Made by a program: the position numbers and the translations under genes. A DNA stretch of 64,000 nucleotides from Nitrospirota bacterium (lineage in GTDB: Bacteria; Nitrospirota; Nitrospiria; SBBL01; JAADHI01). Of the stretch, positions 1,528-18,604 are shown piece by piece (position 1 is the stretch's first letter; each line of letters begins with the position of its first letter). The notes beneath the pieces are model-generated. The model did no database searches. It saw nothing but the letters and a program-made list of their open reading frames with translations, and had not been told where the DNA came from. Location: assembly GCA_029261165.1 (NCBI GenBank), contig JAJDBV010000005.1:17707-81706 (forward strand), given 5' to 3'.

Positions 1528-1875
1528 AGTATACCTTTGTAACGATTCGGCATGCCACTATTTTTATTCGACTCTCAATGAAAAAAACCTGTCTGCTTGT
1601 TTACTCCCTTTCCGGGCTTATTATGACTGATAAGACCAAAATCTGTCATCGATTGGGTAATCCTTTACATAGCTGACGTGTCGGAAACGCGATATCCGAG
1701 ATAAATAAGGGTCATTTTTCTAACAATATGGTGATCGTCCTAGGCATATTGAGGCATGCAAATTGCCTTATTACGGCAGAGCGCAGAAGGGGTTTGAAGA
1801 AACCCTCTCATTATCTCGTTTTCTGTGCGTGTTCGAAAAGGCGATCCTCGGAGAATCCGCGATCGCCGTTCATCC

Positions 1876-1975
1876 TTTGTTCAGAGCAAACCAGGGGAAA
1901 CCTTGGGACGCAGAGTGACGGAGCTAAAGGGGAAAAGGGTGAATGTCCTTTCCTTCATGCTTGCCGGGCCGCCAA
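1876..1975 (+). ncRNA. GEMM-I (c-di-GMP-I / cGAMP class) riboswitch aptamer
   Basis: Diagnostic core GCAAACC-AGGG-GAAA-CCTTGG-GACGCAGAG (1886-1915), P1b closed by a GAAA tetraloop, followed by a GCTAAAGG receptor-like segment and CCTTCATGCTTGCCGGGCCGCC. The base immediately before GCAAACC (1885) is A. Confidence 0.8.
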
Positions 1976-2004
1976 GGGGAAGCTCTTTGGCGGCTTTTTT
2001 TGTT
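1968..2004 (+). terminator. Intrinsic terminator / expression platform of the riboswitch
   Basis: GCCGCCAA...TTGGCGGC stem followed by TTTTTTTG; the 5' arm overlaps the 3' end of the aptamer. Confidence 0.8.
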
Positions 2005-2052: not shown

Positions 2053-4479
2053 ATGCAAAAAAAAATAAGATATTTCGTGATGAGATCTGGTGGTTTATTG
2101 ATCGTATTTTCGTCGTTCATCTTTTTGTCGTGTACAAATTCATCGAATTCAGATCCTGTTGCTCAGGACGATCTTCCCGGGATTGTCTTTGTAAAGCGTT
2201 CGGTCGATTCTCTGGGTGATCCTCTGGATCCTGTTGAATTTACCTCCGGGGGGGATCTCCATACCCTGGTTCCCGGAACCCCTTCAGGAAACCTTCAGAA
2301 TCTGACGACAGACCTCACCAATGGTGTTGGGGATGTTTCGGACCCTGAAGTCTTCCCGCAGACCGGTCAGGATTCATTCCGCCTTGTTTTTTCCTTGAAG
2401 CGCAACAGTACAGACAATTGGCACCTATATGAGGTGGTTGTCAATAAAGACGGAACCCGGGCCGCACCCCCGGAGCAACTCACCTGTGGGCTTTCCAACG
2501 AGGTGGAACCAGCCTATCTCCCGGATGGAAGGATCGTCTTCACCTCTGACCGACCAGGGCACCTTGATGAGTATGAACGGAGAAAATCCCATGTTCTTCA
2601 TATCCTGGACAGGAGTAAGGCAACCCTCCCGTCACAGCCCACTTGTGGCGATGCTGGCGAGATCGTTCAGATTTCCTTCAACCAGAGTCATGACCGAAAC
2701 CCTGTTGTCCTCAAGGATGGAACGATTCTCTTCAGCCGTTGGGAGCACCTTGGCCGAGTCAATAAGTTCACCCTTTTCTCAGTGGAGCCGGATGGAACGG
2801 ATCTTTTTGTCAAATATGGCTCACACTCGGGCGTCAATAGCTTTCTGAGTGCCCGTGAGTTATCCGATGGCCGATTGGTCTCCACGATGATGCCACTCAC
2901 GGGGACCTTTGAAGGGGGTGCCGTTGGTGTGCTCGACGTGGTCAATGAGGCCGACAATGCTCAGACAGCTTCACAGCAACTCACCAAACCACAGGTCATT
3001 CCCACGGGACGAACCCCCTCAGATTTCGGACGCTATTTCAGCACCTATCAGGTGCCGGATGGTTCGGATCGCTACTTGGTTTCCTATGCCACCGGGGCTG
3101 TCGTGCGTGACAGCATGATGAACCTCGTGGAAGAACCGTCCTATGGGCTCTGGATGCTCAATAATCGTGACGGAACCCTAAAGCCGATCAAGCTCCCGTC
3201 TGCGGGGACAAGAGAGGTCTACCTGGAGCCCATTCCGCTGATGGCGACCCCCGCAAATTTAATCCCCACGATGAAGACCCAGAAGACCGCGAACCGCAGC
3301 GCGATGGTACAGACGGGGGTCCTGGCGGCGGCCAGTGTCTACGACTCCGAGGCAAACCGGGCGCTCTCCGATGCCGTACTTGGGGTGACCATTCCGAGAG
3401 ATATTTCCGGGAACATCGACTTCAACGCACTGGTTGCGGATCCAGCGCTCCAAGTGGTCAAGGAGGTGCGGGTGATCGAAGCGGTTCCCAGCGATCCGGG
3501 CATTGGGAGAGAGGATATTGGCGCGACCCAGTTTGAACGGCAGAAAATCCTCGGCTATGCCCCCGTGGAGGCAGATGGTTCCTTCCGGATCACGGTTCCG
3601 GCAGATCGGGCGATTACATTGAATGTGGTCGATTCAAAAAGGCGTTCTTTCAAGGTGAAAGAAAACTGGCTGCAAGTGCGCCCTGGAGAGAACAAGACCT
3701 GTAATGGGTGCCACTCACCGAGGCGGGGAATGCCTCAACGTCTCGCAGCCGAGTCTATCGCGTTGAACAGAGCCGAATCGGCTCTGGCACCTCCGGCAAT
3801 TCCGGTTATTGACTACACGGACCATGTGCAGACGATCTTTACAGCCAAATGTGTTTCCTGCCACTCGGTTGCAAATATCAATGGGCCGGATGGCGGGCTG
3901 GAATTGGTTGGAGACCAGTCCGGCGCCGGATTCCCGCTTTCATATGATCAGCTTCTTGAGGGTTCAAACGGGTCCGACCTCGTGTCGCCGGGGGAATCCC
4001 GTCAAAGTCATCTCATCGAGCGGGTTTTTGGAGAGGAGTTAAGGGCCGGCGACACGCTTCCAGTCTCTGATCCTGCCAATCATGCGATGCTCCTTACAGA
4101 TCCGGAGAAGGAAATCCTGGTGGAATGGATCGACATGGGCGCCCAGTTTACCAACAAACAGGTCATTGCCAATACGGGGAGAAAGAATCTTGATCAGGTG
4201 GTTTTTCAAACGGCCATTCAAGCGATTCTTCAACAGCGCTGTGCGGGATGCCACGTCGCGGGGGGCGGGAGCAACTTTGTCTTGACCGGAAGCCTTGAGG
4301 GGGATCTGAATGCAACCGCATCCCGAACCAATGTCAGCGACCCGGCCAACAGCATCCTCCTTTTAAAGGCAATCGGAACGATTCCGATGCGCGTGAATGG
4401 GCTGCCGGTAACTCCTCCGTTGCTCTTGTCAGATCCGGATTACACGACGATTCTTAATTGGATCTCGGCAGCAAACTAG
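2053..4479 (+). CDS. HzsA-related multiheme c-type cytochrome lipoprotein with PD40-like N-terminal region
   Basis: Lipobox-like FLSC; TolB/PD40-like repeats (YLPDGRIVFTSDRPG); three CXXCH motifs (CNGCH, CVSCH, CAGCH). ATG at 2053 preferred over TTG at 2035. Confidence 0.75.
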   Translation: MQKKIRYFVMRSGGLLIVFSSFIFLSCTNSSNSDPVAQDDLPGIVFVKRSVDSLGDPLDPVEFTSGGDLHTLVPGTPSGNLQNLTTDLTNGVGDVSDPEVFPQTGQDSFRLVFSLKRNSTDNWHLYEVVVNKDGTRAAPPEQLTCGLSNEVEPAYLPDGRIVFTSDRPGHLDEYERRKSHVLHILDRSKATLPSQPTCGDAGEIVQISFNQSHDRNPVVLKDGTILFSRWEHLGRVNKFTLFSVEPDGTDLFVKYGSHSGVNSFLSARELSDGRLVSTMMPLTGTFEGGAVGVLDVVNEADNAQTASQQLTKPQVIPTGRTPSDFGRYFSTYQVPDGSDRYLVSYATGAVVRDSMMNLVEEPSYGLWMLNNRDGTLKPIKLPSAGTREVYLEPIPLMATPANLIPTMKTQKTANRSAMVQTGVLAAASVYDSEANRALSDAVLGVTIPRDISGNIDFNALVADPALQVVKEVRVIEAVPSDPGIGREDIGATQFERQKILGYAPVEADGSFRITVPADRAITLNVVDSKRRSFKVKENWLQVRPGENKTCNGCHSPRRGMPQRLAAESIALNRAESALAPPAIPVIDYTDHVQTIFTAKCVSCHSVANINGPDGGLELVGDQSGAGFPLSYDQLLEGSNGSDLVSPGESRQSHLIERVFGEELRAGDTLPVSDPANHAMLLTDPEKEILVEWIDMGAQFTNKQVIANTGRKNLDQVVFQTAIQAILQQRCAGCHVAGGGSNFVLTGSLEGDLNATASRTNVSDPANSILLLKAIGTIPMRVNGLPVTPPLLLSDPDYTTILNWISAAN

Positions 4480-5018
4480 TGAAAATGGGCTCGATTAAGG
4501 GGATCAACAATCAGGTGGTAAAAATGGTTCTCGGGATGAGAGGGGTCGCGATTTGTCCTTTTCCGGTGAGGAGGATTTGTGGCGGCCTCTTGGTGGGTTT
4601 TTTCCTTTTATTTAGTGGGGGATGCGGCCATGTTGAACCGGGAGAGGAAGGAGTCGCAGGAGGATTGGACCATACAACCTTCAAAAATACGATACAGCCG
4701 ATTCTGGACAACAGAGGCTGTTCTCAGAATGGGTGTCACTTTCGGGATAAAGTGAATCCCAATATCGGAGGACCGGGAGGAAGTTTTCGTCTCTTTATCT
4801 GCACAGGGAGCGATCCCTGCACACCTGGGGAGCTTCTGGCAAACCACGACTCCTCTGCGGGGATGAGCGATATCGTTAATCCGCCAAACAGCAAGCTTCT
4901 CACCAAGCCCCTGGCACTTCAGGGAGGCGGGGTGCAGCATTTGGGGGGAGAAATATTTTCAAGTACAACAGATCCGGATTATTTGACGGTGTTAAGTTGG
5001 ATACAGAGTCCGCTCTAG
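4458..5018 (+). CDS. Cytochrome c-like lipoprotein with CX4CH motif
   Basis: Lipobox-like GGCG; FKNTIQPILDNRGCSQNGCHFRD; C-terminal DPDYLTVLSWI shared with the upstream cytochrome. True start uncertain. Confidence 0.6.
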   Translation: MDLGSKLVKMGSIKGINNQVVKMVLGMRGVAICPFPVRRICGGLLVGFFLLFSGGCGHVEPGEEGVAGGLDHTTFKNTIQPILDNRGCSQNGCHFRDKVNPNIGGPGGSFRLFICTGSDPCTPGELLANHDSSAGMSDIVNPPNSKLLTKPLALQGGGVQHLGGEIFSSTTDPDYLTVLSWIQSPL

Positions 5019-5791
5019 GCTTATTGCCCCATAACGCAGGTTTCCGATCGGTATTTCTATTTCATTTGATAGGATTTCTGCTGATCGGGTTCCTGGCCTC
5101 GGCGACACCCGCATTCGGCGAGGAGGAAGTCGTTCAGGTTGTTGAACCCTTCCTGGAGATCCATACCGGGCCGGGGATGAGCTATCCGGTCTTCTACATT
5201 GGGGAGAAGGGGGAAGAGGTCCTTCTTCTGAAACGCCGAACAGATTGGTACAAGGTTCGCCTCCGTAATGGAAAAGAGGGTTGGGTCCATCGTCTCAAGA
5301 TCGATCTTACCCTTCGGGCCTCTGGGTTCCGGAAAGGCTGGGCCGAAAGGATCTATGACAAATATATTTCGAGGCGGCTCATGATGGGATGGGGAGGAGG
5401 AACCTTCGGTGGTGACCCCATTCTCACACTCAGAGCGACTTATTCCTTTACAGAGGTCCTGGCGTTGGAGGGAGGGGTCGGTTTGGCGACGGGTGATCTG
5501 GGAGGTACTGAACTCTATCAGGGTGGCCTGGTGTTCATCCCCTGGAGCGGCCCCTGGTTTTCTCTCCATGGAACAATTGGCGGAGGACGGGTTCAGGCCT
5601 CTCCCACCCCTCTTCTGATCAAAGCAACAAGTAAAGGTTTCTCGACCGCTTATGGCGGGATTGGTTTTTCCGCCCCGCTTTTTAGACGGCTGTTCTTACG
5701 CGGTGATTTTCGTAATTTTTCACTGTTTGTAAACCCCAAGCGCACCAGGGAGATTCAAGAATATACGCTGGGACTCTCTTTTGGATTTTAA
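4997..5791 (+). CDS. SH3-domain protein with C-terminal outer-membrane barrel-like region
   Basis: SH3b-like VEPFLEIHTGPGMSYPVFYIGEKGEEVLLLKRRTDWYKVRLRNGKEGWVH; C-terminal alternating beta pattern. Confidence 0.65.
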   Translation: MDTESALGLLPHNAGFRSVFLFHLIGFLLIGFLASATPAFGEEEVVQVVEPFLEIHTGPGMSYPVFYIGEKGEEVLLLKRRTDWYKVRLRNGKEGWVHRLKIDLTLRASGFRKGWAERIYDKYISRRLMMGWGGGTFGGDPILTLRATYSFTEVLALEGGVGLATGDLGGTELYQGGLVFIPWSGPWFSLHGTIGGGRVQASPTPLLIKATSKGFSTAYGGIGFSAPLFRRLFLRGDFRNFSLFVNPKRTREIQEYTLGLSFGF

Positions 5792-6476
5792 GGGAAAAGC
5801 ACTTATGTCTGGAAAAATATCAATTACACGACGGATCTCCAAGGCACTGGTCATTGGAATTATTTTCGGATTAATTTTTTCGCAAGGGGCGATTGCGGCC
5901 GCACAGAGTGGTGAATTTCTTCGGGGAGAAGACCCCTTGATCTCACCCCCAACAGAGGAGAGGGTTATCAAAGAAGCCGGAATCGATGCGGAATACATAG
6001 AGGTCAGCGCATTTTATGGATTGTACGCTCTGGATGGGTTTGCATCCTCGCCCGTCAGCGGTGCGAGGCTTGCCCTTCATTTAACAGAGGATATCTTTTT
6101 TGAAGGGAGCTACGGCATGACAGAGGCCGACCAGGAGGTCTTTGAGCGTTTGACCGCCCGGTTACTTCTTACCGATACAGAGATCATCTACTGGAATGTC
6201 AATGTGGCTTATAACCTCTTTCCCGGGCAGATTTTTCTAAGCCGTAAAAAGACGATTAATTCCACAATCTTTCTGATCGGGGGTTTGGGGCAAACGCAAG
6301 TCGATAACCGGGATCATTTCACAAGCAATTTTGGGATTGGATATCGGGCTTTTATCACAGACTGGCTTGATGCGCGGATCCAGTACACCGTCCATTCTTT
6401 TGAGACAGATCTGACCGGGGTGAAGGAGCGAATATACAACCTGGAGGGTACGGTTGGTCTTGCGATATTTTTCTAA
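5781..6476 (+). CDS. Outer membrane beta-barrel domain protein
   Basis: Signal peptide, barrel-like repeats, terminal hydrophobic/aromatic strand (GTVGLAIFF). Confidence 0.6.
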   Translation: MDFKGKALMSGKISITRRISKALVIGIIFGLIFSQGAIAAAQSGEFLRGEDPLISPPTEERVIKEAGIDAEYIEVSAFYGLYALDGFASSPVSGARLALHLTEDIFFEGSYGMTEADQEVFERLTARLLLTDTEIIYWNVNVAYNLFPGQIFLSRKKTINSTIFLIGGLGQTQVDNRDHFTSNFGIGYRAFITDWLDARIQYTVHSFETDLTGVKERIYNLEGTVGLAIFF

Positions 6477-6487
6477 GAGGAAATAAC

Positions 6488-6618
6488 CACTCAGCATGCC
6501 CCTCTTTTCCTCCATGGCGGCGTTGATGTGGTGCTCGAATCCTCGCGTAGTGAAACCTACGCTGTGGTTCTGCGTTCCTCACGCCTTGCCCTGAATAAAA
6601 ATAGTGGCATGCTGAGTG
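6488..6618 (-). repeat. MITE-like dispersed repeat, complete copy
   Basis: 13-bp perfect terminal inverted repeats CACTCAGCATGCC/GGCATGCTGAGTG. Interior (minus strand) TTCAGGGCAAGGCGTGAGGAACGCAGAACCACAGCGTAGG...CTACGCGAGGATTCGAGCACCAC matches 36.4 kb and 47.5 kb. Confidence 0.8.
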
Positions 6619-6642
6619 CTTACAAATTAAAAAGGACAGGAT

Positions 6643-7167
6643 ATGAGAAAGAACAGATTAAAAAGAGAGAGAAGGGTTTGGCTGGCCATTTTTTTGTTGA
6701 GCCTATCCCTTGCTGGGAACATAGATCATGCTGAAGGAGGAAGCAAGCCTCAGCATGCAGCAGACTTTACAGCAAAGAGCCTTTCCGGAGAGAACATTAA
6801 GCTGAGCGAGTTACGGGGGAAGGTGGTCCTCGTCAATTTTTGGGCAACCTGGTGTACCCCGTGCAAGAAGGAGCTTCCTTATTTTAACCGCCTGTATGCG
6901 AAGTATAAAAACGTGGGGCTCAAGGTCCTGGGTGTCAATCTCGACAAGGTCCGTTCCAAGGCCGTGAGGATGAGCAGTGCGATGGGTCTCTCCTTTCCGG
7001 TCCTGCTTGATCCGGCTGGAAGGGTCTCAGGTCTTTACAGGATCAGGAGCATGCCAACCACCTATGTCGTGGCCAAGGACGGGACGGTTCGTCATATCCA
7101 CTGGGGCTTTGGGCCGGATGAGCCAGCCCGGTATGAAGCAGAGATTCGAAATCTTCTTAAAGAGTAG
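6643..7167 (+). CDS. TlpA-family thiol-disulfide oxidoreductase
   Basis: VLVNFWATWCTPCKKELPYFNRLY active site; signal peptide. Confidence 0.9.
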   Translation: MRKNRLKRERRVWLAIFLLSLSLAGNIDHAEGGSKPQHAADFTAKSLSGENIKLSELRGKVVLVNFWATWCTPCKKELPYFNRLYAKYKNVGLKVLGVNLDKVRSKAVRMSSAMGLSFPVLLDPAGRVSGLYRIRSMPTTYVVAKDGTVRHIHWGFGPDEPARYEAEIRNLLKE

Positions 7168-7174
7168 CGTGTAA

Positions 7175-7405
7175 ATGAAGAATAGAAGCAGAATATTTGT
7201 CTTAATGATTACTTGTTTCATCGTCCTCGGAGGATTGACAGGATGTGCCGGCGTGAGGCCCTGGGAGCGTGAGATCATGGCCGATGAAACGATGAATTTT
7301 GACGCGGACCCTTTAGAGGAAGGCTGGCACCTTCATATCCAGGAGGTGAGGGAAGGAGCCCGGGGAGGGTACAGCGGGTCCGGGGGAGGATGTGGTTGTC
7401 GGTGA
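7175..7405 (+). CDS. DUF4266 small lipoprotein
   Basis: Lipobox LTGC, AGVRPWEREIMADETMNF, Gly/Cys tail GGYSGSGGGCGCR. Confidence 0.8.
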   Translation: MKNRSRIFVLMITCFIVLGGLTGCAGVRPWEREIMADETMNFDADPLEEGWHLHIQEVREGARGGYSGSGGGCGCR

Positions 7406-8532
7406 TGCGATCTCTTTTTGCAACTGGAGGCATACTCCTTGTCCTGGTCGTGACGATCGAGACCGCCACAGCCATAGAACCTGCAGATGAGACTGTTTCA
7501 GTTGGTTTTAATTTCTACGACGGCGGAGGGATTATGGTTCAGGGACCGGCCGTGATTGTCCGGAAGGATGTTCTTGACAAACTGTCGATAGAGGCTGGAG
7601 GTCGGGTGGATCTTGTGAGTTCGGCATCGATCGACGTGGTTACACAGGCCAGCCGCTATACAGAGAACCGTAAGGAATATTCAATCGGAACGAGCAGCAT
7701 CTTTGGGGACACGCTGATGACGACGGGTTATGCACGCAGTGATGAATCAGATTATATCTCTGACCTGCTCTCACTGAGTCTGGCCCATGACCTCATGGAC
7801 AAGAACCTGACCTTAACGATGAAGCTGGCCCGCTCCTGGGATCAGGTTGGAAGAAATGATGATCCCGCTTTTGGCTGGAAGGATTTCAACCGAACGATTT
7901 ACGCAGTTGGCGTTGCCCAATCCATGACAGCCCGATGGCTGGTGCAACTTAACTACGAGCTCACGGCCGACGAAGGCTTGATCAACAACCCATATCGGAG
8001 TGTCCTGACCCTTTCTGGAGGGACGGCGCCGGAGAACTACCCAGAGGCCAGAACGGGACATGCCTTTGTCGTGAGGACCGCTTATGGATTTCTCCCCGAT
8101 GATGCTGAAGGAGAAGGGGGGGGGAGGCGCTCGATCCAACTGGACTATAGATATTACCAGGATACCTTTGATATCCGATCTCACACCGGCAAGTTTTTAT
8201 ATCAGCACTATGTCTCTTCTGATTGGCTCCTGGGTTTCTCTTATCGGTACCATCGTCAGGGGGAGGCAAGCTTCTATGGAGACCGTCTCCCGACCACACA
8301 GATTTTTAAGGCGAGGGATAAAGAGCTTTCACGCTTTTCCGATCAGTGGATCGGCGGGTCGATCAAGTTCAAACCAGAGCAATGGCGATGGCGATCAATC
8401 GAAAATCCCTATTTTAAGCTGGGCTACAATTTCTTGATTTTTAATTACGATAATTTCACAGATCCCCGGACCGGGGGACTTTATTCGGTGAGGGCCAATG
8501 TACTACAAGCGAGTTTTGGTTTTAATTATTAG
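7390..8532 (+). CDS. DUF3570 outer-membrane-like protein
   Basis: Beta-barrel pattern; position between DUF4266 and ApbE; overlaps the DUF4266 ORF. Confidence 0.8.
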   Translation: MWLSVMRSLFATGGILLVLVVTIETATAIEPADETVSVGFNFYDGGGIMVQGPAVIVRKDVLDKLSIEAGGRVDLVSSASIDVVTQASRYTENRKEYSIGTSSIFGDTLMTTGYARSDESDYISDLLSLSLAHDLMDKNLTLTMKLARSWDQVGRNDDPAFGWKDFNRTIYAVGVAQSMTARWLVQLNYELTADEGLINNPYRSVLTLSGGTAPENYPEARTGHAFVVRTAYGFLPDDAEGEGGGRRSIQLDYRYYQDTFDIRSHTGKFLYQHYVSSDWLLGFSYRYHRQGEASFYGDRLPTTQIFKARDKELSRFSDQWIGGSIKFKPEQWRWRSIENPYFKLGYNFLIFNYDNFTDPRTGGLYSVRANVLQASFGFNY

Positions 8533-9532
8533 CCTGATGACCTTAGGGCTGATTGCGCATTTTCCAGAAGCGGCAGCTGAGACGAGAGAAGGACACCTGG
8601 TGACTGAAGAGCGGGCTCTGATGGGGACCCGGGTGTTGATCAAGGTCTTTGGCGATGATCGAAGTCGGATCGATCAGGCGATCCGTGCCGGGTTTGCCGA
8701 GGTGGTCCGATTAGAAAAACTCATGAGCAACTTTATCCCTGAGAGTGAGCTCTCCCGGATTAATCAAAACGCGGGCAGGGTCCCGGTCCCGGTCAGTCGG
8801 GAGCTTTTCAACTTGATCCGGAAGGCCATAGACTACTCCAAGTTGACCGATGGTGCTTTTGACCTCAGCTTTGCCTCGGTCGGAAAACTCTGGAACTTTC
8901 GAGCGGGGGTCGTTCCTTCTACCGAGGCGGTTAGAGAACGGCTTCATCTCGTGGATCACAAGAAGATTCGTTTAGACGAGAGTACATCCAGCATCTTCTT
9001 GACGCACAGCGGAATGGAAATCGGTCCAGGCGGAATCGGCAAGGGTTATGTTATGGATCGGACCATGGCCGTTCTGAAGAAACATGGCATCCATAACGCC
9101 ATGGTGATGGCCGGGGGAGACACTTTGATACGGGGTAAAAAGGGCAATGAGGCCTGGAAAGTCGGACTCCGAGACCCGAATAAGAAGAATGGCATCCTGG
9201 CGGTCCTGCCCTTGAAAGACGAGGCCATCTCGACTTCCGGGGACTATGAACGTTTTTTCATGAAAGACGGGGTCCGCTACCACCATATTCTGGATACAAA
9301 GACGGGTTTTCCGGCAAGGCTCTGCCGGAGCGTTACGATCCTGGCCCCGGATGCGACCACGAGTGACGCACTCTCCACCTCTGTTTTTGTCCTCGGTCCG
9401 GAGAAGGGGCTTGCGCTTATTAATCGCATAGACAGTGTTGATGCGATTATCGTCGGTCCTCAGGGCAAGATTCACCTCTCTTCCGGATTAACGGCCCTGG
9501 ACCTTAAATCGATAAATAAAAATGAGGAATAG
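8498..9532 (+). CDS. apbE: FAD:protein FMN transferase (ApbE family)
   Basis: ALMGTRVLIKVFG, GGIGKGYVMDR, STSGDYERFF, HHILDTKTGFPA motifs. Confidence 0.9.
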   Translation: MYYKRVLVLIISLMTLGLIAHFPEAAAETREGHLVTEERALMGTRVLIKVFGDDRSRIDQAIRAGFAEVVRLEKLMSNFIPESELSRINQNAGRVPVPVSRELFNLIRKAIDYSKLTDGAFDLSFASVGKLWNFRAGVVPSTEAVRERLHLVDHKKIRLDESTSSIFLTHSGMEIGPGGIGKGYVMDRTMAVLKKHGIHNAMVMAGGDTLIRGKKGNEAWKVGLRDPNKKNGILAVLPLKDEAISTSGDYERFFMKDGVRYHHILDTKTGFPARLCRSVTILAPDATTSDALSTSVFVLGPEKGLALINRIDSVDAIIVGPQGKIHLSSGLTALDLKSINKNEE

Positions 9533-9534
9533 TC

Positions 9535-10110
9535 ATGATCAATAAACTGATTGTTTGTTTTTTCACGCTTCTCCTTGTCGTTCCCACATGGGCCCAGGAA
9601 ACCCCGAAAGGTCGTCCGATGACGGCTTCGGAAACGGCTTCCGAGACAGTTCCCACTGACAGTCTCGAGAGCCTCGATCCAAAAATTCAAAGCTTGAAGG
9701 AAGAGATTCTGGCGCTCAACAGTCTTCTTTTCCGGTTGCAAGAGGATCTCCTTTTTCCGGAGGACTCTTCGCTTGTCGTCTTTCTCAGTGTCGAAGGGGG
9801 AAATTATTTCAATCTTGATTCGGTCAAGCTTCACCTGAACGATACCATGGTCTCGAGTTACCTTTACACACAACGGGAGGTCAGCGCACTTCGCAAGGGG
9901 GGTGTTCAGCGCCTCTATACAGGAAACATCAAGTCGGGTGCCCACCAATTGGTCGCGGTTTTCACGGGGACGGGCCCTCAAGAGAAAGACTACAAGCGGG
10001 CGGAGACAATTTCCATCGAGAAGAAAAAGGGTGCGCGGTTTATTAAGATCATTATCCGGGATGACGCGGATAAGAAGCAGCCTGAGTTTAAATATGAGAC
10101 GTGGGAGTAA
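9535..10110 (+). CDS. Secreted periplasmic protein of the TPR/TolQR cluster
   Basis: Signal peptide; start of a tightly packed co-directional gene run. Confidence 0.55.
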   Translation: MINKLIVCFFTLLLVVPTWAQETPKGRPMTASETASETVPTDSLESLDPKIQSLKEEILALNSLLFRLQEDLLFPEDSSLVVFLSVEGGNYFNLDSVKLHLNDTMVSSYLYTQREVSALRKGGVQRLYTGNIKSGAHQLVAVFTGTGPQEKDYKRAETISIEKKKGARFIKIIIRDDADKKQPEFKYETWE

Positions 10111-12028
10111 ATTGAACCGAAAGCCTGATCAGAAGATCCTGTTTTCATGGATGAAGGGTGTCGCCTTTTCCTTCATGTTGGTTCTTGTTCCGATCTGCTT
10201 GCATGCAGAGGGCGTGCTTTCAGAAGGAGATGCAGACCAGCAGAAATCATGGGAGGTCTTGAAAAGAGAGGCTTATTACCATTTCTTCCTCAAGGATTAT
10301 CTGACCGCGGCAACCCGTTTGAAGTTGATCGAGGCCTCGGGTGAGGCGGTGAATGACTTCAGGATCGTTAATGAAGTGAAGGTTCTTTTGGGCAGTCTTT
10401 ATCTGGCCTGGGGAATGGACCGATCTGCAATCCGTGTGTTCGGGGAATTGGACAAGCCGGGAGAGGAACGGAGTCAACTTCTCCTCAAGGTGGTCAAGGT
10501 GCAATACGAGCGTTCTCGTTATAAGGATGCCCTCGAGACATATAGATTATTTTTTCCAGAAGGGGGCGCAGCCCTGATTGAACAGCCCCGATATTTGGAT
10601 CAGGCGGAATACCTGGCCGGCTTGAACCATTATGCTGCAGGTTCAATTCGGGAAGGGGTCCAGAGGCTGAATAAAATTTCCCCGACCAGTCCGTATTTCC
10701 CCTATGCCCAACTGACACTGGCGAAATCCTATGTTCAGTTAAACGACTCTGCTCAATCGCTTCGCCTGCTCCGGACCTTGAGCGAAGTTGACACAGGCAG
10801 GAGTTCAGCACTGGTGACATTGACTGAGAAGAGTCGGCTTACATGGGGACAGCTTCTCATCGAAGAGAGAAATTTTGGAGAGGCACGGCGTGTCCTGGCA
10901 TTTATCCCCCAAGAGAGTCCCTTTTTCCCGGATTCCCTTTTCGGCATGGGCTGGACTCAGTTCAAGGAGGAAAAGCACCTGGAAGCGATACTCACCTTCC
11001 AGGATCTCATTAAGATCGCCCCGGATCATGACTATGCCCTAGAGGCCCTCACTGTCCTGGGTCATGGCTATAAAAAGTTGGGTGCTTTTCAAACAGCCAT
11101 CGACCATTACACTGAGGCCATTGAAATTTACGGTGAAAAGGTGTCAGAGATTCGTACATTTCAAAGGACGTTTGAGGACCCTGAGGCCTTCTCCCGTTTG
11201 TTAAGAGAATACGAGGATCAGAAAGGACCTCTGGTCGAATTTCTGAAGGACGATCGGATTCGATTCTGGGTAGGGCAATATGGTGACCTTATAAAGATGG
11301 AGTCTTATCTTCAAAAGAAATTACGCGACATGGGGGTTTTTGAAGTGCTGGTGGACCACCGGGAAGAGGTTTTCCGGAAATATCTTCCGAAGGTCCGCCG
11401 ATTCTTCAAGGAGACCCCCCTGAAGGGCTTGCGGAAAAAAGGAGAGGGCCTACGGAGAGATGTGAACCAGGCGGTCCAAAAGGAGGGCATCCTCTCTCTC
11501 GCCTCCGCCAACGAGGTTGAGACCTATGCCCTGTTATCCGAGGCGGTGTCACAGAGCCTTAGCCTGGGAGCGCAGATCGAGACTTTTGAAGGGGGGTCGG
11601 CCCCTGTTCTCGCGCAAAGAAAAGAATGGCATCGCGTTGATCGCTGGCTGAAGATCGCCCTGGGGGAGATGGTCTGGAAGATTACGACTGAGGTCCCGGG
11701 CAGGGCGGATGATCTTCGAAGGGATGTTCGGGTCGTCATGGCAGATCTTGAATTCATGGGGGAAAAACATGCCGGCCTGATCTCCTCTGTCCCCGCCTTG
11801 TCAGGGGAGATCGACGATTTCCGGCGTCGCATCAAGGCGGTCCGGGCCGAGCTGTTGGCACTGCGCGGCAAGGCCATCGCCTTGAGAGAGGCACTTCTTC
11901 CTCCACTTCAAGAGATCTTTCTTGGGGCATCGGAAAAGTGGATCAATCGGATTATGCGCCTGGTTGCTGTCGCGGAGTTGAGTCAGATACAGATTCTCGA
12001 TGGTCAAGACAGGAAGAGCGAACGATGA
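10094..12028 (+). CDS. Periplasmic TPR-repeat protein
   Basis: TPR-like helices (ALEALTVLGHGYKKLGAFQTAIDHYTEAIEIY). In-frame ATG at 10094 is a better start than 9902. Confidence 0.7.
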   Translation: MRRGSKLNRKPDQKILFSWMKGVAFSFMLVLVPICLHAEGVLSEGDADQQKSWEVLKREAYYHFFLKDYLTAATRLKLIEASGEAVNDFRIVNEVKVLLGSLYLAWGMDRSAIRVFGELDKPGEERSQLLLKVVKVQYERSRYKDALETYRLFFPEGGAALIEQPRYLDQAEYLAGLNHYAAGSIREGVQRLNKISPTSPYFPYAQLTLAKSYVQLNDSAQSLRLLRTLSEVDTGRSSALVTLTEKSRLTWGQLLIEERNFGEARRVLAFIPQESPFFPDSLFGMGWTQFKEEKHLEAILTFQDLIKIAPDHDYALEALTVLGHGYKKLGAFQTAIDHYTEAIEIYGEKVSEIRTFQRTFEDPEAFSRLLREYEDQKGPLVEFLKDDRIRFWVGQYGDLIKMESYLQKKLRDMGVFEVLVDHREEVFRKYLPKVRRFFKETPLKGLRKKGEGLRRDVNQAVQKEGILSLASANEVETYALLSEAVSQSLSLGAQIETFEGGSAPVLAQRKEWHRVDRWLKIALGEMVWKITTEVPGRADDLRRDVRVVMADLEFMGEKHAGLISSVPALSGEIDDFRRRIKAVRAELLALRGKAIALREALLPPLQEIFLGASEKWINRIMRLVAVAELSQIQILDGQDRKSER

Positions 12029-14850
12029 AAAGATTAGGCCTTCAAGGTGTCCACAGTATCCTCTTGGTCCTTCTACTCCAGGTGGGGTGCGTCGGACCGA
12101 AACCCTATCAGGTGACCGATGCGCGCATCCAGGGATTGGCTCGGGAGGTGTCTTTGCTCCGGTCTGAGCCCGTGGTCTCAAAAAAAGGCGAAGTGCTCAA
12201 AAAATACAAGGCCTTCTTATCAGAATACGGCCAGATGCCGTCCAGGCTGCGTGCACCTGCCCTGAAACGGCTCGGAGACCTTTACATGGCATCGGCCAAT
12301 GAGAAGTTTATTCGGGAGATGGAGGCCTATGAGGCACAACCTGAAGGCCCTCTTCCCCTGGTGGACTACCAAAGGGCGATCGAGACCTATAGCGTATTGC
12401 TTCGTTCCCATGATGAATATCCCGATAACGACAAAGCCCTCTATGCGCTTGCCAGGGCTTATGCGGAGAGTGGAGAAAGGGATTTGGCCCTTCCCCTGCT
12501 TGAACGGCTTATCAACCAATATCCGGCGAGCCCTCACAGATTGGAAACCTACTTCCGCTTGGGAGAGTATTACTTTGACCGGCATCGATACGAAAAAGCC
12601 GCAGAGGCCTACGCACAGACACTCTCCTGGAAAGACCCTTTTTTCCATGATAAGGCCCGGTACAAGCTGGGTTGGACCTTCTTTAAGATGAAGACCTATC
12701 CTGAAGCGATTGAACAGTTTCTTGCCCTGATTGAGAAGATGACGGCAACGCAGACCACTTTTTCTCCCGAAAACGGCACCCTGGTCTGGGAGGCCTTGAC
12801 CTATGTGACCAGCTCATTTCGAATCCTTGGGGGACCTTCAAAAGTGGCGGCCCATTTTAAGAAAAACGGTTCGCGAAGGTATGAAAAAGATCTCTACCTG
12901 ATGATGGGAAACCAGTACATGGCCGAAAAGCAGATCCAATCGGGAATCGAAACCTATGAAACCTTCATTCGGCAACATCCTCATGACGCGATCGCACCAA
13001 TTTTTTCTTCCTATGTCATCGAAGCCCATTTAAAGAGGGGGGAGGAGGAAAAAGCCCATCTTGCCCGGGTCCAACTGGTCAGGGATTACGCCTCTGGAGG
13101 GAGCTGGCACCGTGCCAATGACGTTGCGGCACGCCAGAGGGCGCGCCCTCTGGTGAAGTCGGAACTGCATGGCCTGGCCCTCTCGGCGCATGCCAGAGCC
13201 GAGAAAAAGAAGCAGAAGAAGCATTACCAGGAGGCTTCCACATGGTATCGGCAGTTTTTGCAGGCATTCCCAAAAGAGAAGGAATCTCCAGAGGTCCAAT
13301 TTTTATTAGGGGAAAGCCTGATGGCCCTGAAGCTATATGCCGATGCCGGGGCCGCCTTCATGACCTCTGCCTATGGTTATGCGGACAGAGGTCCGGAAAG
13401 AAAGGCGGCCTATGCCGCAGTGGTGGCTTATCAGAAAGTGAAGACGCTGAAGGGTGAGGCGCAGTTTGTCATCTTGTCGAAGCGATTTGCTGATAATTTT
13501 CCGACCGATCTTCAGACACCTCGGGTCTTGTTCAAGGCCTCTGAACTTCTCTTTGATCGGGAAAGATATCCCGGCGCAGCCGCAATCTTGGAGGAACTCC
13601 TGAGAGATTACCCAAAAGACAAGACGGCTTCAGCTTCTCGTAAACTGGTGGCCCATAGTTATATGAAAGGCAAGATGTTTGCGAAGGCGAGAAAGGCTTA
13701 CGGCCTTGCCGTCTCCTTTCTCCCCGCGACCGCTAAGAAGGAACGAAAAGAACTCTCCGACCTCCTGGTTGCGGCCATCTACAAAGAAGGAGAACGCCAG
13801 CGTGAAAATGGCCGTCCTGATCTGGCCGTCGTCCTTTTTCAGGATGTGTCCCGGGAGGGCCCGAAGAACGAACTGGCACCCGTGGCCCTCTTTGAGGCCG
13901 GATTGCTCTTCGAACTCTTGAAGCAGCCGGAAAAGGCGATTGAGACCTATCGCAAGCTGGTCCGGACCTATAAGCGCTCCCCGCTGGTGGGCAAGGCGAA
14001 TCTACAGGCCGGTCTTGCGTACGAATCTTTGGGCAAGGAACTCAAGGCGGCCGCGGCCTTTTCCGTGGCCGCCAGGCTGATCAAAGATAAAGAAGAGGTC
14101 CAGAACCTCCTTTGGACCGCTGCGCAACATTATGAAAAAGGAAGGAAATGGAACAAGAGCTATGCCACTTTCTCGCGCTTTATCAAACGGTTTCCAAAAC
14201 ATCGCGATGCCCCGGAAGCCCTTTTTAGAATGGCGCAGGCCCGGCAGAATACGGGAAAGCTCAAAGAGGCGAGAAAGCTATATAAGAGAATAATAAAGCA
14301 GGCACCCGGGACCCTGTTTGCCGCGCGGGCCCTCTTCCAGGAGGGGGAAGCGTCCTACAGGCGCTTCAAGGCCATCAAATTGAAAATTCCTTTGTCGAAG
14401 AGCCTTAAGAAGAAGACCCGAGCTTTTAAGGTGGTGATCAACCTCTATACGAAGGCAGTCGAGACGGGTGAACTTGAAGTCGTCACCGTCTCTGCCTATC
14501 GCCTGGGAGAGGTCTTCGAGCATTTCGCCGCTTCGTTGTTGAATGCCGAGCGCCCAAAAAATCTCAACGAAGAGCAGTTGGAGGAGTACATGTTTCAGTT
14601 GGAAGAGAAGGCCTATCCGTTTGAGGAAAAAGCCATCTCTGCCTATAAAAGCAATGTCCAACGTACGCAGCAGACCGCAGGTTTCTACAACGAATGGGTC
14701 AAGAAGAGCTACGATCGTCTTGCCGAGCTTCGTCCGGCCTTTTATCGAAGGGAAGAGCGTGCTGAACAGATCGTTTCCAATATCGATCCCAGGGTCTTCT
14801 CCAACAGAGCGGGGAAAGAGACGCTTGCGCGGGTAATGAAGGGTGACTGA
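12025..14850 (+). CDS. Large TPR-repeat lipoprotein
   Basis: Lipobox LQVGC; many TPRs (KALYALARAYAESGERDLALPLLERLINQYPASPH). ATGA overlap with the upstream gene. Confidence 0.75.
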   Translation: MKRLGLQGVHSILLVLLLQVGCVGPKPYQVTDARIQGLAREVSLLRSEPVVSKKGEVLKKYKAFLSEYGQMPSRLRAPALKRLGDLYMASANEKFIREMEAYEAQPEGPLPLVDYQRAIETYSVLLRSHDEYPDNDKALYALARAYAESGERDLALPLLERLINQYPASPHRLETYFRLGEYYFDRHRYEKAAEAYAQTLSWKDPFFHDKARYKLGWTFFKMKTYPEAIEQFLALIEKMTATQTTFSPENGTLVWEALTYVTSSFRILGGPSKVAAHFKKNGSRRYEKDLYLMMGNQYMAEKQIQSGIETYETFIRQHPHDAIAPIFSSYVIEAHLKRGEEEKAHLARVQLVRDYASGGSWHRANDVAARQRARPLVKSELHGLALSAHARAEKKKQKKHYQEASTWYRQFLQAFPKEKESPEVQFLLGESLMALKLYADAGAAFMTSAYGYADRGPERKAAYAAVVAYQKVKTLKGEAQFVILSKRFADNFPTDLQTPRVLFKASELLFDRERYPGAAAILEELLRDYPKDKTASASRKLVAHSYMKGKMFAKARKAYGLAVSFLPATAKKERKELSDLLVAAIYKEGERQRENGRPDLAVVLFQDVSREGPKNELAPVALFEAGLLFELLKQPEKAIETYRKLVRTYKRSPLVGKANLQAGLAYESLGKELKAAAAFSVAARLIKDKEEVQNLLWTAAQHYEKGRKWNKSYATFSRFIKRFPKHRDAPEALFRMAQARQNTGKLKEARKLYKRIIKQAPGTLFAARALFQEGEASYRRFKAIKLKIPLSKSLKKKTRAFKVVINLYTKAVETGELEVVTVSAYRLGEVFEHFAASLLNAERPKNLNEEQLEEYMFQLEEKAYPFEEKAISAYKSNVQRTQQTAGFYNEWVKKSYDRLAELRPAFYRREERAEQIVSNIDPRVFSNRAGKETLARVMKGD

Positions 14851-15524
14851 TGCAAATTTTTAGGCTGAAAGTCTGGGTGCCGATAGTTTTTTTTTTACTC
14901 CTTGGCTCAGGTTGTATCAAGGCGATCTCTCCACCGGTGGACCCTGTGATGTCTGTTCTTAAGGACCACGGGGCGATCACACCGGAACAGGAAGTGTTGG
15001 AGGAGAGCGAGGAGTCCGCACCAGATGCTGAGTTGGACGCAGTGTTGCTTCAATTCCAAAAAGGGATTCAGCTTCTTGAGGGCGGCAAGGCAAAGGAAGC
15101 CCGTTTGTTATTTGAAGCGCTTCGGGATCGTTATCCCGAAGTCAGTGTGATTCATAACAATCTGGGCGTCACTTACAAACGCTTAAACCTTCTGGATGAG
15201 GCAGCCGAGTCCTACCAAAAGGCAATTGATCTTCAAGGGGGAGGCTATACAGAAGCCCATTACAATCTTGCCATCGTCTTTCGAGAGCAGGGTGCCTTTC
15301 GGAAGGCCGAATCGGTTTACAAGGTGGTGATCGCCCTAAATCCCGAATTCCAGGATGCCCACTACAATTTGGCAGTTCTCTATGACCTTTATCTGGATGA
15401 GGCGGAAGAGGCGCTTCAGCATTATAGAAAATATATGGAACTTATTGATGGAAATCATCAGGAAATTGAACTATGGGTCGCGGCGCTTCAGAAACGTATC
15501 AATGTATCGGGAGGTAAAAAATGA
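14850..15524 (+). CDS. TPR-repeat lipoprotein
   Basis: Lipobox LLGSGC; VIHNNLGVTYKRLNLLDEAAESYQKAIDL. Confidence 0.75.
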   Translation: MQIFRLKVWVPIVFFLLLGSGCIKAISPPVDPVMSVLKDHGAITPEQEVLEESEESAPDAELDAVLLQFQKGIQLLEGGKAKEARLLFEALRDRYPEVSVIHNNLGVTYKRLNLLDEAAESYQKAIDLQGGGYTEAHYNLAIVFREQGAFRKAESVYKVVIALNPEFQDAHYNLAVLYDLYLDEAEEALQHYRKYMELIDGNHQEIELWVAALQKRINVSGGKK

Positions 15525-15859
15525 AGATGCTTACCCTGGGGACAATCGCTTCTATCTTATTTATATTCCTAACCGGGATTCATGGGTTTGCTGAGGAGGG
15601 AGAAAGGTCTAAAGGAGAAAACTTGGGCCAGGAGCGTGGCTTGGAGCGTCTGATGATGGGGGGCACGGAGATCCAGGGGACGGTAGAAAAACCGCATGTT
15701 GTTTATGTGGTCCCATGGAAAGAAGACACATCCCTGTCTCAACAGGAAATTTCATATGAACGAAGCTTTAGAGAGGAGATCCTAGAGCCGGTCGATCGCG
15801 ACCGTTTCCAACGTCAATGGGGGAATGGTCCCCGAACTTTGAAAGGAGGCCGTCGATGA
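15521..15859 (+). CDS. Small secreted protein of the TPR/TolQR cluster, unknown function
   Basis: Signal peptide; GGTEIQGTVEKPHVVYVVPWKED; overlaps both neighbours by a few bases. Confidence 0.55.
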   Translation: MKMLTLGTIASILFIFLTGIHGFAEEGERSKGENLGQERGLERLMMGGTEIQGTVEKPHVVYVVPWKEDTSLSQQEISYERSFREEILEPVDRDRFQRQWGNGPRTLKGGRR

Positions 15860-16617
15860 ATACGGTGGTGATTTTAATACAGTTTTATCGGGATGGTGGT
15901 GTTTTTATGTATCCTCTCGTCGGAATTTTGGCCATTTCTACCGCAATTGTTCTGGAGCGTTTTATCATTCTTATGCGGTCCGGAGTCAATGAACAGAAGC
16001 TATGGAATAAGATTTCTCCAGATCTCCGCTCATCGCGCCTGGATGAGGCGGCCCGCTCATGTTCCGCTTCCAGCAAGCCGCTGAGTCATGTCATCGCCGC
16101 AGGTATCGGGGGAATGAAGCATTCACTTTCCCGGGAAGGCATTCAGGGAACGATGGATGAGGCTGCCATGGAGGTGATGCCGAGATTGGAGGCCCGTCTC
16201 CATTATCTTCCCAATCTGGCCAATGTCGCAACGCTTCTCGGCCTCTTGGGGACCATTATCGGACTCATTCAGGCCTTTACCGCGGTTGCCGTGGCCGACC
16301 CTTCCCAGAAGGCCACACTACTTGCAAAGGGGATTTCCATGGCCATGAACACCACCGCCTTTGGCCTGGTTGTCGCCATTCCGATCATGCTGATATACAG
16401 CTTTCTTCAGGTGAAGACCAACCGGATTCTAGAAAGTCTGGATATTTACGCCTTAAAGCTTTTGAACCTCTCTTCCCAGTTGGGCACCAAAAAGGGTGTC
16501 CTCTCTGCGAATGGGGGAAGGCAGCGCCCGACGGCCCAGGGGTCAACCGGAGGGAAAAAAGCCGCCTGGAGCGCCGGTGATGCGCAGTTGGCCAAGGGGG
16601 GGAGTCATGCGAAGTAG
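15856..16617 (+). CDS. MotA/TolQ/ExbB proton channel family protein
   Basis: LATLLGLLGTIIGLIQAFTAVA and ISMAMNTTAFGLVVAIP motifs. Confidence 0.9.
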   Translation: MNTVVILIQFYRDGGVFMYPLVGILAISTAIVLERFIILMRSGVNEQKLWNKISPDLRSSRLDEAARSCSASSKPLSHVIAAGIGGMKHSLSREGIQGTMDEAAMEVMPRLEARLHYLPNLANVATLLGLLGTIIGLIQAFTAVAVADPSQKATLLAKGISMAMNTTAFGLVVAIPIMLIYSFLQVKTNRILESLDIYALKLLNLSSQLGTKKGVLSANGGRQRPTAQGSTGGKKAAWSAGDAQLAKGGSHAK

Positions 16618-17092
16618 GGAAGACCGCCGCGTCACCCGACGAAAAAACTCGGGAGACCTAACATTGAACATCACTCCTTTTCTAAATCTCATGGTGGTGT
16701 TGGTCCCGGTTCTTCTAAGCGGGGTGGTCTTCTCACGGGTGGCCATCCTGGAGATGAGTCTCCCTTCTGCACCGGGGAAAGAGGTACACGCGGAGGCGCC
16801 AAAAGAGACCTTTAAGCTGATCGTGACAATTCGTCAGGACGAATTGGTTGTCCGGGGTAGTGGTGTCGGAACCTCTCGCCTCCCCGGTAAGCATGGAAAA
16901 TACAACCTCAAAAAGCTGAGCGCACTCTTACAGCAGGTCAAAGGCAAGTATCCAAAAGAGAAGTCAGTGATCCTGCTCAGTGAGCCTGAGATCCCCTATG
17001 AATCTCTGATCGCGGTCATGGACATCTGTCGAGAAAACCAGAGGGATCTGCTCTTTCCGGAGATCTCAATCGGGGAGGTGAAATCGACATGA
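16607..17092 (+). CDS. ExbD/TolR family protein
   Basis: LTLNITPFLNLMVVLVPVLL single TM; position after TolQ/ExbB. Confidence 0.8.
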   Translation: MRSREDRRVTRRKNSGDLTLNITPFLNLMVVLVPVLLSGVVFSRVAILEMSLPSAPGKEVHAEAPKETFKLIVTIRQDELVVRGSGVGTSRLPGKHGKYNLKKLSALLQQVKGKYPKEKSVILLSEPEIPYESLIAVMDICRENQRDLLFPEISIGEVKST

Positions 17093-17589
17093 ATCGAATG
17101 AGATGTTTACAGAAGAGGCAGAGGCGAAGCCCTGCTGTTCAGCTTTCACTCACCAGTCTGATGGATATCTTCACCATTCTCCTCCTCTTTTTATTGATGC
17201 AAATGGGAGACGAAGGGATGGCCCTTCCGACTTCAGAACAGATGAATCTTCCCGCCTCCACCTCGCGGGAGAATCCCGCTCCCACGGTCATCATCATGGT
17301 CACGGAGAAGGAGATCCTTCTTGAAGGAAAGCCGATCATGAGTATAAAAGAAGCGATCAATATGGAGGGTTCCATTCTCCATCCGGTAAAGGAGGCGCTG
17401 ACCCGGCTGGCCGAGCAAACCAAGTATCTTGCCAGTCAGAATGCTTCGGTAAAATTTACGGGAAAAATCACGGTGATGGGGGATCGAAAGATTCCCTTCC
17501 GGCTTCTGAAAAAAGTGATGAATACCTGCGCACAAGCGGAATTTCCGAACATCGCCCTGGCGGTGACGAAGAAAGAGGAAATGGGTTAA
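17089..17589 (+). CDS. ExbD/TolR family protein (second copy)
   Basis: VQLSLTSLMDIFTILLLFLLMQM single TM; TolR-like C-terminus. Confidence 0.8.
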   Translation: MNRMRCLQKRQRRSPAVQLSLTSLMDIFTILLLFLLMQMGDEGMALPTSEQMNLPASTSRENPAPTVIIMVTEKEILLEGKPIMSIKEAINMEGSILHPVKEALTRLAEQTKYLASQNASVKFTGKITVMGDRKIPFRLLKKVMNTCAQAEFPNIALAVTKKEEMG

Positions 17590-17599
17590 GGAGGCAAGT

Positions 17600-18604
17600 A
17601 TGTCTTATCTTGAGCGCCAAGAAGAAGTCCTCTTCCGGAAGATGCTCCGGTATTCCCTGGGATTCTATCTTGTGTTGAGTCTCGTCATTGCTGTGGTTAA
17701 ACTTCCGATGCCTAAACCGACGGATATTCGGGATCTTCCCAAGCGGGTGGCCAAGTTGATCATGGAGCCGCCGAAAGTGACGCCCGCGCCGCCGGTTCCA
17801 AAGAAGATCAAGCCGAAGCCGGTGGTCAAGCCCAAGGGTTTAGGGAAGAAAAAACCGAAGGGAAGCCCCAAGCTTAAGATTTCAAAGAGAAAAACCGTTA
17901 AGAAAAAAGTGCCCCCGCCGACCTCCGTACAGCGGAACCGGGAGATTGTCAAAAAGAGCGGACTCCTTGCCTCTCTGGTTGGCGCAGAGATCGCGGGAAA
18001 CCTGGACAGCATCATGGATGATAAGCGGCTGGACAAAGCCCTCTCCCAGCCCAATGTTATTTCAGCCCCTGTCCGAAAAGGAAGCCGTCGGCCGGCCATG
18101 AGCAAAAGCGGCTCCACAAACACAAAACTTGCGGATAAGAAGATCGCGAAATTCGGAACACTGAAGAAGAAGGATCGTGTCCAGCTTGCAAAACGGGAAA
18201 AAGTCACTGTCACCCATCTTGGTGGGACCGGGGGGGAAAGTGGTTCTGGAGGGCCGGGCCACGGACTTGGCGGCGGGGTGGGTGTTCGACTCAGTGGGGG
18301 TGGTTCGGGAACCGCTGTCATAGACTATGACGCCATTGCCCGTGTGGTTGAAAAATACAAGGGAGGCCTTGTCTACCTCTATAACAAGGAGCTTCGGTCG
18401 AACCCGATTCTGAAGGGGACAGTGACCGTAGAGTTTTCCATTGACGACAACGGAAAGGTCGTTGAGGCACGCGTGGTCAACAGCAGCATGGACCATGCAC
18501 GCTTGGAAAAGGCGCTTGCCAGGCGGATCAAGCGGTGGAAATTCCCCAAACTCTTTGACGGGATCATCGTTGTGACCTACCCGTTTGTATTCTTCCCGGT
18601 GTAG
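17600..18604 (+). CDS. TonB-like energy transducer with AgmX/PglI-type C-terminal domain
   Basis: N-terminal TM, Pro/Lys-rich linker, C-terminal AIARVVEKYKGGLVYLYNKELRSNPILKGTVTVEFSIDDNGKVVEARVVNSSM. Confidence 0.8.
   Translation: MSYLERQEEVLFRKMLRYSLGFYLVLSLVIAVVKLPMPKPTDIRDLPKRVAKLIMEPPKVTPAPPVPKKIKPKPVVKPKGLGKKKPKGSPKLKISKRKTVKKKVPPPTSVQRNREIVKKSGLLASLVGAEIAGNLDSIMDDKRLDKALSQPNVISAPVRKGSRRPAMSKSGSTNTKLADKKIAKFGTLKKKDRVQLAKREKVTVTHLGGTGGESGSGGPGHGLGGGVGVRLSGGGSGTAVIDYDAIARVVEKYKGGLVYLYNKELRSNPILKGTVTVEFSIDDNGKVVEARVVNSSMDHARLEKALARRIKRWKFPKLFDGIIVVTYPFVFFPV

Follow-up and report, generated by a model that had tools for sequence, protein, structure and literature searches.

A predicted cGAMP-responsive GEMM-Ib riboswitch upstream of a cytochrome gene cluster in a Nitrospirota genome

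Introduction

Most descriptions of 3',3'-cGAMP riboswitches and of Hypr cyclases concern Geobacter and other bacteria formerly classed as Deltaproteobacteria. The Geobacter GEMM-Ib (c-AMP-GMP) riboswitches, of which Gs1761 (pgcA) and Gm0970 are examples, combine the GEMM-I fold with A20, A47 and C92, act as ON switches through a P1 helix that overlaps a terminator, control genes for extracellular electron transfer, and are also used in tandem (PMC6456294). In Geobacter, deletion of gacA lowers the expression of all GEMM-Ib-controlled genes, and a lesion in the terminator bypasses cGAMP (PMC6456294). In the crystallised cGAMP riboswitch Gs1761 the corresponding triad is A14/A41/C75 (PMC6274999). 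The signature of Hypr enzymes is a Ser or Thr replacing D344 of PleD, together with an intact GGDE[F/Y] motif (PMC6456294, PMC9140294). Canonical c-di-GMP-I aptamers (RF01051; Vc2) have the same fold and carry G20 instead of A20.

Here we analyse a GEMM-I RNA in a member of the Nitrospirota, a host outside the Desulfuromonadota. We found no earlier report of a cGAMP riboswitch in Nitrospirota in the open-access literature, although absence there is no proof of novelty.

Results

A GEMM-I aptamer with adenine at position 20

The window (the whole 64-kb stretch of DNA that was analysed) comes from a 2.9-Mb MAG of 89 contigs, 95% complete, that belongs to the Nitrospirota, class Nitrospiria, and to the same order as Ca. 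Manganitrophus, probably Ca. Troglogloeales (PMC9040806). Its match to RF01051 (Table 1) exceeds the gathering threshold of 35 bits in Rfam cmscan, with E-values of 1.3e-6 for the whole window against 4227 families and of 1.4e-8 for the genome, and the only other Rfam match in the 64 kb is one tRNA. Chance or artefact as the source of the match is ruled out by Rfam and by synteny. That the element is a GEMM-I riboswitch is a near certainty.

The 5' part of the aptamer reads CCTTTG-TTCAG-A-GCAAACC-AGGG-GAAA-CCTT-GGGACGC-A. For the alignment we used the Vc2 numbering, A18-G19-G20-G21-CAAACC ... C46-A47 ... C92; the aligned stretch in the window is CAGAGCAAACC, and A1885, directly 5' of GCAAACC, falls on position 20. 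A47 and C92 are likewise present, so that the A20/A47/C92 core of cGAMP-type GEMM-Ib RNAs is complete. The segment from G21 to C46 has the same length in the other GEMM-I RNAs that match our fixed-length pattern (see below). The initial annotation had proposed a GEMM-I core with a GAAA-capped P1b and an A at the specificity position, and both proposals are borne out by the covariance model and the Vc2/Rfam alignment; the limits of the element needed correction, from 1876-2004 to 1874-2001. Compared with its Geobacter counterparts, the window aptamer differs in its canonical GCAAACC/GGGACGCAGAG core and its CCTTTG P1 strand.

Table 1. Features of the locus and candidate cGAMP synthases of the same genome. 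Positions are those of the window unless a contig is given.
Feature	Position	Strand	Basis
GEMM-I aptamer RF01051	1875..1976	+	Rfam, 49.3 bits
P1 5' strand CCTTTG	1874..1879	+	Pairs with 1973-1978 once the terminator 3' arm is removed; covaries across A20 relatives
Vc2 position 20 = A, ligand-specificity base (G in c-di-GMP aptamers)	1885	+	Sequence, Rfam alignment
G21-C46 segment, P1b hairpin and GAAA tetraloop	1886..1911	+	Sequence, fold
A47, stacked between both bases of the dinucleotide ligand	1912	+	Rfam alignment; = A41 of Gs1761 (PMC6274999)
P1a helix and variable loop	1914..1970	+	Rfam alignment, fold
C92, pairs with ligand guanine	1972	+	Rfam alignment; = C75 of Gs1761 (PMC6274999)
P1 3' strand, part of terminator 5' arm	1973..1978	+	Folds with and without terminator
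Intrinsic terminator overlapping P1 3' strand and C92	1966..2001	+	Scan, folds
First gene under predicted control: lipoprotein carrying a PD40 propeller, hydrazine-synthase-alpha (HzsA)-like middle domain, three CXXCH	2053..4479	+	Pfam PF18582 (1.2e-17), PF07676, PF13442
Lipoprotein with one C-x4-CH motif	4524..5018	+	Syntenic in six relatives
SH3 and outer-membrane barrel protein; second outer-membrane barrel protein (TIGR04565)	5039..6476	+	
TlpA-like thioredoxin, DUF4266 (7175-7405), DUF3570 (7390-8532), ApbE (8498-9532)	6643..9532	+	
Unknown, three TPR, unknown, TolQ/ExbB, two ExbD/TolR, TonB-like with AgmX/PglI C-terminus	9535..18604	+	Order conserved
GAF-GGDEF protein L024	G000:C75		Ser348 + GGDEF
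GAF-GGDEF protein L027	G000:C58		Ser348 + GGDEF

An overlapping terminator

The stem-loop of the terminator (1966-1996) has 14 pairs in the scan and a free energy of -22.0 kcal/mol, and is followed by seven T (1995-2001). It corresponds to the terminator GCCGCCAA/TTGGCGGC-T7 that the initial annotation had placed across the 3' edge of the aptamer. In MFE folding, the RNA lacking the terminator 3' arm adopts the GEMM-I fold with P1 formed between 1874-1879 and 1973-1978, whereas inclusion of that arm lets the terminator win and P1 is lost; the strand 1973-1978 is common to both computed structures, which are mutually exclusive, and the pattern is conserved. Since the 3' strand of P1 and C92 are shared by aptamer and terminator, ligand binding should antiterminate, and an ON switch of this kind is very likely from the computed folds and from the recurrence of the P1/terminator overlap in A20 RNAs, in line with the geometry first proposed. 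We dropped folding energy as evidence, the MFE z-scores being unremarkable (-1.1 and +1.0) and not significant; our argument relies instead on the covariance model and on comparative data. A promoter scan of the upstream region gave nothing above shuffled sequences and no consensus promoter.

A conserved gene cluster downstream

Downstream of the terminator lie 17 co-directional genes (cytochrome, flavinylation and TolQR/AgmX) whose order is kept in six relatives from three families: in G003, G005 (to the contig end), G024 and G029, and in G023 and G028, where ExbB/ExbD are not detectable. This conserved order supports a single operon spanning 2053-18604, and strengthens the earlier suggestion that control might reach several genes downstream. 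The earlier description of the cluster as a multiheme cytochrome operon is loose, multiheme being an overstatement for a first gene with three CXXCH and a second with one C-x4-CH. The succession TlpA-DUF4266-DUF3570-ApbE is known as a module for extracytosolic flavinylation and thiol electron transfer (PMC8238504). Our literature search found no paper describing the combination of an HzsA-like cytochrome with TlpA/DUF4266/DUF3570/ApbE and TolQ-TolR-TolR-AgmX.

An A20 riboswitch precedes the homologous operon in the window, in G023 and in G028, and is missing from the other six homologous loci. Being present at three of nine loci, it has been gained or lost; and as the operons of six of the eight other genomes do without it, its control is not obligatory.

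Three further observations concern these genes. TolQ-TolR-TolR-AgmX forms a motor-like set that resembles parts of the myxobacterial Glt/Agl machinery. The DUF3570 protein, although ApbE adjoins it, seems to have no clean flavinylation motif of the form [S/T]GA[S/T]; visual inspection shows SSAS and TQAS. Finally, the ribosome-binding region of the first gene contains a run of ten G (2041-2050), two bases 5' of the start codon ATG, and slippage there could alter translation.

A20 aptamers in the host genome, in Nitrospiria and beyond

The host genome holds six GEMM-I aptamers; position 20 is G in four of them and A in two. The four G20 paralogues, which share fold and clan with the window aptamer, have RF03167 as best family match, differ from it in their P1 sequences, and precede an approximately 870-aa lipoprotein, a PilX-like protein and short proteins. 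The second A20 aptamer (G000:C61:18980; L166 position 2991, G000:C61:18990) scores a sub-threshold 29.6 bits, has a long P1a insert and is followed by a gene for a fibronectin type III (fn3) surface protein, as identified by Pfam.

We surveyed A20 and G20 forms in 43 genomes with a fixed-length core pattern, for which the reversed control is almost zero. It replaced a looser one, AGCAAAN{4,9}GNAAN{4,9}GRCGC, which was too noisy, with control matches in most genomes. A20 forms occur in families f1, f5, f7, f10, f11 and f12, with the consensus CCTTTGCTCAGAGCAAACC-N4-GAAA-N4-GGGACGCAGAGCAACGGGGCTAAAG...ATGCCCGCCGAGCCGCCAAAGG...TTTGGCGGCTTTTTT. In f5, the Ca. Manganitrophus type, A20 forms outnumber those of the c-di-GMP (G20) type: the five larger genomes have six to eight plausible A20 matches each versus one G20, and the sixth (72% complete) has three plausible A20 matches. 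The aptamers of relatives are often in tandem, as in Geobacter (PMC6456294), whereas the window copy is single. P1 varies together with its partner strand (CTTTG/CAAAG, CTCTG/CAGAG, GCTG/CAGC), with paired changes at pair 3 (TA 41, CG 19, AT 1), pair 4 (TA 56, GC 8) and pair 5 (CG 58, TA 7), and a crude finder scored an overlapping terminator in 74 of 115 A20 RNAs. By simple motif matching, which Pfam confirmed only for the genes in the window and for a single fn3 protein, fn3-like or cytochrome genes follow 30 of 55 A20 loci versus none of 22 G20 loci.

The same subtype and architecture are also found in MAGs of Gemmatimonadota, deltaproteobacteria and Geobacteraceae, with overlapping terminators at many of the Gemmatimonadota loci (L242, L247-L249, L251, L255, L256, L258, L262, L271, L279, L284, L292, L293, L297). 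A separate case is that of two near-identical GEMM-I paralogues of G20 architecture, L217 (G035:C18:32430-37770) and L219 (G035:C62:88830-94100), with A and G respectively at position 20; they precede different lipoproteins and may represent a natural single-base specificity switch.

Candidate cGAMP synthases

The initial annotation had pointed to a genome search for a Hypr GGDEF cyclase as a check, and the outcome is positive at the level of the sequence signature: among 29 GGDEF domains in the genome, two, those of L024 and L027, combine Ser348 with an intact GGDEF, in the motifs GHLMGS...GGDEF and GHLTGS...GGDEF, where canonical enzymes have Asp at the Ser site. Both proteins thus carry the Hypr signature and are predicted to be Hypr-type cGAMP synthases. 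They resemble the Hypr enzymes GacA (GSU1658), Gmet_1914 and Bd0367 in this respect, but bear an N-terminal GAF domain in place of the receiver domain of GacA. The best PDB match of L024 is 6d9m, the solved Hypr domain from Geobacter (E 4e-48 versus 4e-35 for the next), and the two align at the Ser. No SMODS/CD-NTase that could serve as an alternative source of cGAMP was found in the genome.

Orthologues of L024 are present in 30 of 120 genomes of the class, its own included, at 52-91% identity and with Ser in all 30; those of L027 were found in f1 and f5. Among the class genomes examined, A20 aptamers occur in 21 of 30 with an L024 orthologue versus none of 13 without, an association with a Fisher p of 2e-5 that ignores phylogeny and has a p of 0.06 at the family level. 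Ser348 enzymes also accompany A20 in many deltaproteobacterial and Nitrospirota MAGs.

Discussion

The element described here is best explained as a GEMM-Ib riboswitch that would turn on, in response to cGAMP, the operon starting at 2053, a reading to which we give a probability of about three in four. We propose that the leader would fold co-transcriptionally into the GEMM-I aptamer, whose A20/A47/C92 pocket should prefer 3',3'-cGAMP. Bound ligand would hold P1 and C92 in place, thereby occupying the 5' arm of the terminator, so that RNA polymerase would read on; when ligand is missing, the stronger hairpin would form and transcription would stop near 2001. The operon would then be expressed from the cytochrome lipoprotein onward, probably through 18604, and one or both of the GAF-GGDEF enzymes encoded elsewhere in the genome would be the likely source of cGAMP. 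Relative to the Geobacter systems, what would come under control first is a gene of another kind, an HzsA-like propeller-cytochrome lipoprotein, by means of a predicted cGAMP ligand.

That this ligand is cGAMP is likely from the bases of the pocket and their company in the genome, but A20 by itself does not prove it. The G20A variant of Vc2 is promiscuous, and an A20 ON switch that works by the same antitermination could in the cell respond mainly to c-di-GMP, or to both dinucleotides. C-di-GMP should be plentiful in this organism, which has many ordinary GGDEF proteins, most of its 29 domains having Asp at the selectivity site. The Gemmatimonadota point the same way: Ser348 is present in one MAG (G135), but reading of the GGDEF loci did not find it in six others (G120, G126, G129, G130, G138 and G140), whose sites hold Asp, Asn or His, or are low-scoring and unclassifiable. 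The A20 aptamers of these MAGs are the main loose end of this work, and could reflect another synthase, a different ligand, or loci that were missed because the MAGs are incomplete. We nonetheless consider this reading unlikely for the window aptamer, as A20 tracks the Ser348 enzyme in the Nitrospiria and is kept across a class-wide subtype whose consensus and controlled genes are unlike those of the co-resident G20 aptamers. That the aptamer is a degenerate or non-functional relic and the operon is expressed from elsewhere is very improbable: its score is below that of its closest relatives (49 versus 65 bits), no upstream consensus promoter was found and the same operon exists elsewhere without it, but the ligand-contact bases, P1, P1b with its GAAA loop and the terminator are all intact, and the pairing of this riboswitch with this gene persists in another family, where the protein is 67% identical.

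Beyond this locus, we think it rather probable that Nitrospirota outside the Nitrospirales run a full cGAMP network, in which a dedicated and widely conserved Hypr synthase of GAF-GGDEF type, with a regulon of several A20 riboswitches in each genome, would control fn3 surface proteins and electron-transfer cytochromes. The presence of A20 and G20 aptamers in one genome provides a ready set for in vitro tests. A riboswitch and a synthase co-conserved in Nitrospirota, lithotrophic manganese oxidisers among them, would extend the cGAMP pathway to another phylum, and would hint at the surface electron-transfer genes that these bacteria, most of them uncultured, switch on together. Given a full network of the kind outlined above, cGAMP would signal more generally that a cell lives on a solid electron donor or acceptor, and would not be peculiar to Geobacter and related bacteria.
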